45,136 nt of DNA from Fidelibacterota bacterium 408169 (lineage in GTDB: Bacteria; Fidelibacterota; Marinisomatia; Marinisomatales; TCS55): assembly GCA_002256485.1 (NCBI GenBank), contig NNSG01000014.1, positions 1 to 45,136 on the forward strand. The letters run 5' to 3'. A model generated the notes under the pieces. The model saw only the letters and a program-made list of their open reading frames with translations, was not told where the DNA came from and made no database searches. Both the position numbers and the translations under genes were made by a program. Positions 20,100 through 21,822 of this stretch are shown piece after piece (position 1 is the stretch's first letter; each line of letters opens with the position of its first letter).

Positions 20100-20214
20100 A
20101 GTTAATGATTTAAATAATGTAAATCTCACTTGATCCGGTTGTTTGGTTACCTTTATTTATTCTTACATTATAGACCATAGAATAGGAGCGAATCAGATGA
20201 CTCATTCCACAAAA

Positions 20215-20262
20215 TCACCATGAAGATTCTGAAGAGGATTTGGGTTTTATTTTTCTAGGCAT
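20215..20262 (-). other. Tiny ORF with a strong ribosome-binding site
   Basis: AAGGAGG on the minus strand, 5 nt before an ATG at 20262, heads a 15-codon frame (MPRKIKPKSSSESSW) that ends at a TGA. The ribosome site is among the best in the window. It is either the surviving start of a decayed gene or a leader peptide. No function can be assigned. Confidence 0.3.
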
Positions 20263-20296
20263 AATGCCTCCTTTTTAGTCAAATAACACCCGAAAA

Positions 20297-20322
20297 CAAA
20301 AAAAGCGCCGGGGCGCTTTTTG
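20297..20322 (+). terminator. Bidirectional hairpin terminator
   Basis: aaaagcgcc-gg-ggcgctttt is a perfect 9-bp stem with A-run and T-run flanks. It lies ~200 nt after the peptidase stop and probably ends transcription of the secretion cluster. Confidence 0.7.
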
Positions 20323-20400
20323 CTCCCGGTTTAGCAGTTTTTTTTGAGCCGCCTGCAAGTTGGGTTAAAGCACGGCCATATTCAATCAAGTTTAAATAAT

Positions 20401-20680
20401 TCAAATCGTTTGCAATCCGATTTCATGAAGATATGCAAAAGTAGGATCATAAAAATCTGGATTTCTTGTAGGATCTTCCGAGTCTCCTTCAGGGACAACA
20501 ATAACCATTCCTTGACGGGCTCTGGTTAATAATACTCTGTAAGCATTTTTTAGATAATTCTGTCTTTCAATTTTATGTATTTTTTGCATACCGAATTCAG
20601 ATCTGTCGGATCTCTGAACTCTAATGGATATTTTATCGTTTGTAGCATTATAATCATAGTGATTTACACCTTTTAAAGTA
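20401..20680 (-). pseudogene. C-terminal remnant of a DUF2075-type DNA/RNA helicase
   Basis: Only the end of the gene remains. From the stop at 20401-20403 the minus-strand frame reads back through YLKNAYRVLLTRARQGMVIV and PEGDSEDPTRNPDFYDPTF, the highly conserved C-terminus of the DUF2075/Schlafen-AAA-like helicases (helicase motif VI region). The frame stays open to about 20680 but the helicase Walker motifs are absent. A full-length family member has well over 500 residues. The break coincides with a palindromic repeat at 20678, which may mark the deletion point. A 62-residue protein starting at the internal ATG (20589) is unlikely to be functional. Confidence 0.75.
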
Positions 20681-20727
20681 GTGCAGACATTCCTGTCTGC
20701 ACTACGACAGGCAAGAATGCCTGTCGT
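20678..20727. repeat. Tandem palindromic repeat (two hairpins)
   Basis: gtagtgcagaca-ttcc-tgtctgcactac (perfect 12-bp arms, 20678-20705) is directly joined to acgacaggca-agaa-tgcctgtcgt (perfect 10-bp arms, 20704-20727). The two hairpins share CAGACA/GACAGG-like cores with the loop motif inverted. The form is that of dispersed REP-like intergenic elements. Beyond it, 20728-20950 holds no gene or structure I can support. Confidence 0.75.
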
Positions 20728-20950
20728 ACCTCTAAAGGGTCAAATTTAGTAAATCAAAACGGTTTTCTTCATTTATGTTATTTTCATTATTATGAATATT
20801 AATTGTATAATAAGCTTTGGTCCGTATTTTGCATAATTACCTAATCATTTAAGTATAAAACCAGCCTTCTTTCTCTCTAAAGAAGCTGCAGATCGGTAAA
20901 AACCCATCATATTGCCATTGCTGGATAAGCTCAAATGGACTGTTTTACCG

Positions 20951-21331
20951 TTATTTTAGCAGGACCTTCCAATGTCCGCCCCGTTTACCGCCTATGCGTT
21001 CAAGCACCCCTAATTTCTTCAATTTGGCAAGATGTTTTTGTATGGCTGAAGGGTTAATACCAACCTTATTGGCTAATTTCTTTTTCGTTATTGTTTCATC
21101 AACTAAAATATAATTAACTATTTCAATTTGCCTATCAGTCAATTGTTCTTTGTTTTTTAGACCACCTTTTAACTCATCCCGTATTGCCCGGACAATAAAT
21201 TCGATAAAGACGGTGCTGTCAGCCTGATTGTCTGAACTTTCCAACGCAGAATAATATTCCTGTTGTCTGTCTTTAATCAGTGTTTCAACTGTCTTAATAT
21301 ATACATATTTTTGAAGTTTTATAAAAAACAT
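20951..21331 (-). pseudogene. C-terminal fragment of a Fic family protein with winged helix
   Basis: The frame has 126 codons. KDRQQEYYSALESSDNQADS followed by TVFIEFIVRAI is the typical segment after the Fic core. Residues ~62-126 form an intact winged helix (TKKKLANKVGINPSAIQKHL, then GGKRGGHWKV). The catalytic HxFxDGNGRxxR loop that should lie upstream is missing, and upstream sequence does not continue it. The gene is therefore a 3' remnant. The surviving helix-turn-helix could still be made, since an ATG is present, but I see no ribosome site. Confidence 0.7.
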
Positions 21332-21428
21332 TCATGGACAAAATACCTTGAAAAGGTTTAATCTTACCGCCAATCAATCTGTAATTTACTGTAGCAAATT
21401 CAACCACAACCAAAAAGGATAAACACAT

Positions 21429-21779
21429 ATGGACGATTTTAGTATCTACCACAACCCCCGGTGAGGCAAGAGCAGGACAACACTGCAGCTGCTGCGTGAC
21501 AGCGGCGTCGAGCCAACAATTATAGAATATTTAAAAGACATTCCCACTGTGGATGTATTAAAAGATTTGTCAAGCAAATTGGGCAAACGCCCAAGTGAAT
21601 TTGTCCGCAAGGGAGAAACAGATTTTAAGGAAAACAATCTGAAAGAGGTTCTGGACGACGATGAGGCTCTTTTTGCCGCCATGGCGAAATTTCCGAAAAT
21701 TATGGAACGGCCAATTGTGGTTAAGGGCGAAAAGGCTGTCCTGGGGAGGCCTCCGGAAAATGTGCTGGAATTACGTTGA
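21429..21779 (+). CDS. arsC: ArsC/Spx-family reductase with in-frame UGA at the catalytic cysteine (candidate selenoprotein)
   Basis: The frame has 116 codons with one in-frame TGA at 21462-21464. The N-terminus MDDFSIYHNPR-[TGA]-GKSRTTLQLL aligns with the ArsC motif H-N-P-R-C-x-K-S-R, so the TGA replaces exactly the active-site Cys. The rest is intact and of family length. The three substrate-binding arginines are present in FVRKGE, ERPIVV and LGRPPE, and the frame runs to the TGA at 21777. AAGGAT lies before the ATG. A stem-loop at 21488-21506 fits a bacterial SECIS. If read as selenocysteine this is a thioredoxin-fold arsenate reductase-like enzyme. The alternative is a single nonsense mutation or sequencing error; decayed genes lie just upstream. 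Confidence 0.7.
21488..21506 (+). promoter_or_regulatory. Candidate bacterial SECIS stem-loop
   Basis: gctgctg-cgtga-cagcggc forms a 7-bp stem with one G-U pair and a 5-nt loop with G at loop position 2. The loop starts 30 nt after the in-frame UGA. Bacterial SECIS elements lie inside the coding region shortly after the UGA, with a small apical loop having a G near its 5' side. The distance and loop agree with what I recall of that model. The region also encodes conserved protein, so chance pairing is possible. Confidence 0.45.
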
Positions 21780-21822
21780 TAAAGAGAAATATCATTAAAA
21801 TTGATCCTGTGAAGTTGAACAA

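Follow-up and report, generated by a model that had tools for sequence, protein, structure and literature searches.

The UGA at position 21462 of the stretch analyzed here almost certainly encodes selenocysteine (Sec) at the catalytic position of an ArsC-family protein, as judged from sequence comparison across relatives. The stretch, referred to below as the window, is 45,136 nucleotides (nt) long and constitutes an entire contig (C6) of a 2.47-Mb genome in 48 contigs, 95% complete; its placement in the phylum Candidatus Neomarinimicrobiota rests on its nearest named relatives, which are metagenome-assembled genomes (MAGs) of that phylum. An initial annotation had proposed a candidate selenoprotein at this site, and the proposal is borne out by the TGA of relatives, by a covarying hairpin and by the Sec machinery of the genome. 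A predicted Sec-ArsC family has been known since 2005; the gene adds a new member to it and does not define a new family.

The frame translates as MDDFSIYHNPR*GKSR...LELR*, with a single in-frame TGA, and both the reading of the frame and the alignment of homologues agree with the earlier view that this TGA replaces the catalytic Cys while the rest of the 116-codon frame is intact. An ArsC match is present in 86 of 200 related genomes. Among the 81 phylum homologues that we examined, with the codon located by alignment, the catalytic Cys codon is TGA in 66, TGT in 8 and TGC in 7, and the UGA pairs exactly with Cys in the 15 Cys homologues from the same phylum, which is the pairing that the initial annotation had suggested looking for. 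The TGA genomes span many genera and families and include the nearest relatives, G004 (85% identical) and G001 (76% identical), such that the TGA is a shared character and not the private variant that had been considered a danger to the prediction. One genome, G158, has both a Cys copy and a TGA copy.

This distribution bears on whether the gene is instead a pseudogene, its TGA being the product of a nonsense mutation or of a miscalled base. The gene fragments that lie upstream, at 20100-21380, would fit such decay, but the same-codon TGA in 66 genomes and the lack of other stops contradict it, as does purifying selection past the TGA, with dS of 0.76 and dN of 0.07 relative to G004 (dN/dS about 0.1) and dS of 1.63 and dN of 0.18 relative to G001. 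We reject both pseudogene and sequencing error as exceedingly improbable, in line with the original judgment that a random nonsense mutation at this codon was unlikely.

Decoding of UGA as Sec calls on dedicated machinery. No match to Rfam at gathering thresholds and no tRNA was found in the window, and the machinery was therefore sought genome-wide, as the initial annotation had advised for selABCD and tRNA-Sec. The genome has a tRNA-Sec (64.6 bits, above the Rfam cut-off), which ARAGORN confirms with anticodon UCA, directly adjacent SelB (358.7 bits) and SelA (443.9 bits) on contig C48, and SelD (405 bits). The SelD gene carries its own single in-frame TGA, and its product is a second predicted selenoprotein of this genome, of an already known kind. 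At this locus (L018; G000 C47:44127-45053, minus strand) a hairpin, tggctca GGTTC tgggtca, has its loop start 32 nt past the TGA. Across the phylum, 57 of the 66 genomes with TGA have a SelA scoring above the cut-off, and both a confident SelA and an ArsC match are missing from the 24 small genomes of family f15. Since 13 of the 15 Cys loci sit in SelA-bearing genomes, loss of the machinery does not by itself explain the Cys form.

The frame would be open whatever UGA encodes, so that insertion of another amino acid, through global reassignment or a suppressor tRNA, would also account for it. However, TGA is the ordinary terminator of 12 of the 36 large open reading frames in the window, which rejects global reassignment. 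The existence of dedicated tRNA-Sec, SelA, SelB and SelD, the restriction of the hairpin to TGA forms and the presence of only Cys at this site in non-TGA homologues also argue against it, leaving any amino acid other than Sec with a negligible likelihood.

The stem-loop with a G-containing 5-nt loop that had been noticed at 21488-21506 is found exactly there, with the loop CGUGA, and fits a bacterial selenocysteine insertion sequence (SECIS). It has a 7-bp stem, a loop beginning 30 nt after the UGA, a position that we call distal, and a stability of -9.9 kcal/mol. As an observation on a single sequence the hairpin is weak, because a hairpin of 7 bp or more also arises within the allowed range of positions in 11% of synonymous recodings, although one as stable arises in only 0.1%. 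Its significance comes from covariation. In 19 distal homologues, 99.2% of cells pair and 4 of the 7 pairs have changed on both sides; the covariation score is reached by 0 of 500 shuffles, and slid versions score lower. At the same site, Cys homologues show 42.9% pairing with no covariation excess over shuffles, and for these sequences RNAalifold predicts no structure. One Cys homologue (L094 in G040, with TGC) retains CGTGA where the distal loop would lie, flanked by a stem of just three pairs, and may represent a remnant or a forerunner of the distal SECIS.

In most of the remaining TGA homologues the hairpin is another one, GAAGC-CGUGCA-GCUUC or covarying versions of it, which we call proximal because its loop begins 17 nt downstream of the UGA. 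Over 34 aligned sequences, 91.2% of its cells are paired, a value that, like that of the distal group, is biased towards the assigned position, the groups having been sorted by observed hairpin site; the proximal score is likewise reached by 0 of 500 shuffles. When each group is tested for the hairpin of the other, pairing is 51.9% and 49.2%, with no covariation excess over shuffles. The two positions are mutually exclusive within the family, and neither this exclusion nor the covariation follows from the sorting alone.

The 13-nt shift puts the hairpin on different codons and in another codon phase, and the two forms differ in protein sequence. At residue +7 from Sec or Cys, Val occurs in all 45 proximal forms, and Leu in all 19 distal and 41 of 42 Cys forms; Arg-Asp stands at +11/+12 in 19/19 distal forms. 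We consider it quite likely that the SECIS has moved by 13 nt in one orthologous family at the same UGA, each position forcing its own residues, Val+7 in the proximal and Arg-Asp+11/12 in the distal form. The distal group includes the window's family, f1, and genus g14 of family f7, and the distal forms may share a single origin; as the g14 genes nest among the f1 genes, lateral transfer between families is suggested. One f1 genome, G009, has the proximal type, and tests of single clades (117 columns) rejected none of them, with p-AU (approximately unbiased test) of 0.544 for distal, 0.138 for proximal and 0.117 for all Sec forms. In G156, the TGA homologue (L102) has neither common position; a 7-bp hairpin, tccttag-AGTTG-ctaagga, with its loop start 22 nt past the TGA, is possibly a third. 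In the literature, of which our coverage was partial, we found no description of a SECIS move or of alternative positions with a protein imprint for Sec-ArsC.

Translated with U at the TGA, the gene product matches Pfam ArsC (1.7e-16) and scores 126.5 bits against NCBIfam TIGR00014, above the curated cut-off of 106.05, which points to a glutaredoxin-type ArsC. Its residues 1-115 can be aligned with the crystallized arsenate reductases 1jzw/1i9d without a single gap, which places U12 on their Cys. In R773 ArsC numbering, H8, residue 12 (Cys replaced by Sec), S15, R60, R94 and R107 are all present; the three arginines, previously described as intact, are essentially invariant among Sec homologues. 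Elsewhere in the genome there are an Acr3 (396 bits), unlinked to the Sec-ArsC gene, and two glutaredoxins, consistent with arsenate reduction and export.

A mechanism can be proposed on these grounds. A ribosome at UGA 21462 would receive Sec-tRNA-Sec through SelB, which the hairpin at 21488-21506 would recruit, the Sec itself being supplied by SelD and SelA. Aided by His8 and Ser15, Sec12 would attack arsenate, with R60, R94 and R107 binding the oxyanion as expected from homology to R773 ArsC. A low-molecular thiol together with glutaredoxin would then resolve the adduct, and Acr3 would export the arsenite. The chemistry and the physiological substrate of Sec-ArsC are those that we infer from homology.

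Three observations weigh against a selenocysteine-containing arsenate reductase. An ars operon was looked for around the gene, and no ars gene adjoins it. A second ArsC homologue, of the thioredoxin type, is present in the genome (TIGR02691, 132.6 bits, below the 174.3 cut-off), so that arsenate reduction may not depend mainly on the window gene. Finally, no confident SelA was found in 9 of the TGA genomes; these are MAGs with a completeness of 55-93%, however, and two of the nine (G156 and G164) still have SelB. The second homologue lies at L151:1480-1905 on the minus strand of G000 C45, ~36 kb from Acr3 on the same contig, and contains CTGNSCR and CDHANQVCP.

Sec decoding could therefore be real and the main role be other than arsenate reduction, for example glutaredoxin-like or other thiol/selenol redox chemistry. 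Besides the lack of linked ars genes and the thioredoxin-type homologue, the phylum-wide neighbors of the gene, which by inspection look metabolic (nitroreductase, glutamine synthetase, asparaginase-like), would suit such a role. The conservation of all ArsC active-site residues, a score exceeding the TIGR00014 equivalog cut-off and the presence of Acr3 speak against it. We see this other role as rather unlikely, though deserving serious consideration, and arsenate reduction is probably the main role of Sec-ArsC.

Features of the gene are listed in the table. The first start codon past the TGA is a GTG at 21549, which is where, as had been foreseen, gene callers would begin. Two stops in tandem, TGA TAA (21777-21782), close the gene, perhaps as a safeguard against readthrough at the terminal UGA. 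The genes beside it encode, among others, a HAD-like and an asparaginase-like protein. The upstream fragments amount to ~1.3 kb of apparent gene remains. Within them, a minus-strand frame (20951-21331) carries a winged helix at its C terminus (Pfam HTH_24) and resembles the end of a Fic-type protein, Fic being assigned by inspection only, and a helicase-like fragment, again labeled by inspection only, lies near 20392-20589 on the minus strand. A scan of the window for further TGA-interrupted frames listed a few more, as frames only.

Table. Positions in the window of the Sec-ArsC gene and its signals
Feature	Position	Strand	Remarks
Shine-Dalgarno-like AAGGA, 9 nt 5' of ATG	21415-21419	+	Read directly
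Sec-ArsC coding sequence, 116 residues	21429-21779	+	Intact save one internal TGA, codon 12
In-frame UGA, Sec12 at the catalytic Cys position	21462-21464	+	Homologue alignment
Bacterial SECIS hairpin, distal type	Stem 21488-21494/21500-21506, loop CGUGA 21495-21499	+	Covariation in 19 homologues

A Sec-containing arsenate reductase was first reported in 2005 from the Sargasso Sea, with 14 sequences (PMC1088965), followed in 2008 by 77 sequences with a UxxS motif in the Global Ocean Sampling (GOS) survey (PMC2398784). The protein is listed in later reviews (PMC9312934; PMC13188914), and most such selenoproteins are still functionally uncharacterized according to the latest of these (PMC13188914). 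The present gene links a selenoprotein family represented chiefly by anonymous ocean reads to an uncultivated phylum that has a name and a complete Sec machinery. Enzymes of this kind would be truncated at the active site by standard gene callers, and the same codon is affected in at least 66 genomes. The two SECIS positions amount to a natural experiment, both on the allowed distance between SECIS and UGA and on how an intragenic RNA signal constrains the encoded protein.

Comparison with known systems places the window gene close to each of three. It shares with the Sargasso/GOS selenoprotein "arsenate reductase" (COG1393 / TIGR00014) its Pfam/NCBIfam family, Sec in place of the catalytic Cys, the UxxS motif (U-G-K-S in the window) and a downstream bacterial SECIS. 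Those are unassigned metagenomic sequences, whereas the present analysis joins the organism, its machinery and the distribution across the phylum, and distinguishes two SECIS positions. Relative to the consensus bacterial SECIS model, the window hairpin does not differ, fitting the published criteria (PMC13188914) with 5 nt, 7 bp, 30 nt and -9.9, whereas its orthologues place the hairpin 17 or 30 nt downstream. The glutaredoxin-dependent R773 ArsC (PDB 1i9d, 1jzw) coincides with the window protein, ungapped, at every active-site position given above, but the window protein has Sec in place of Cys12, and its gene has no ars operon around it.
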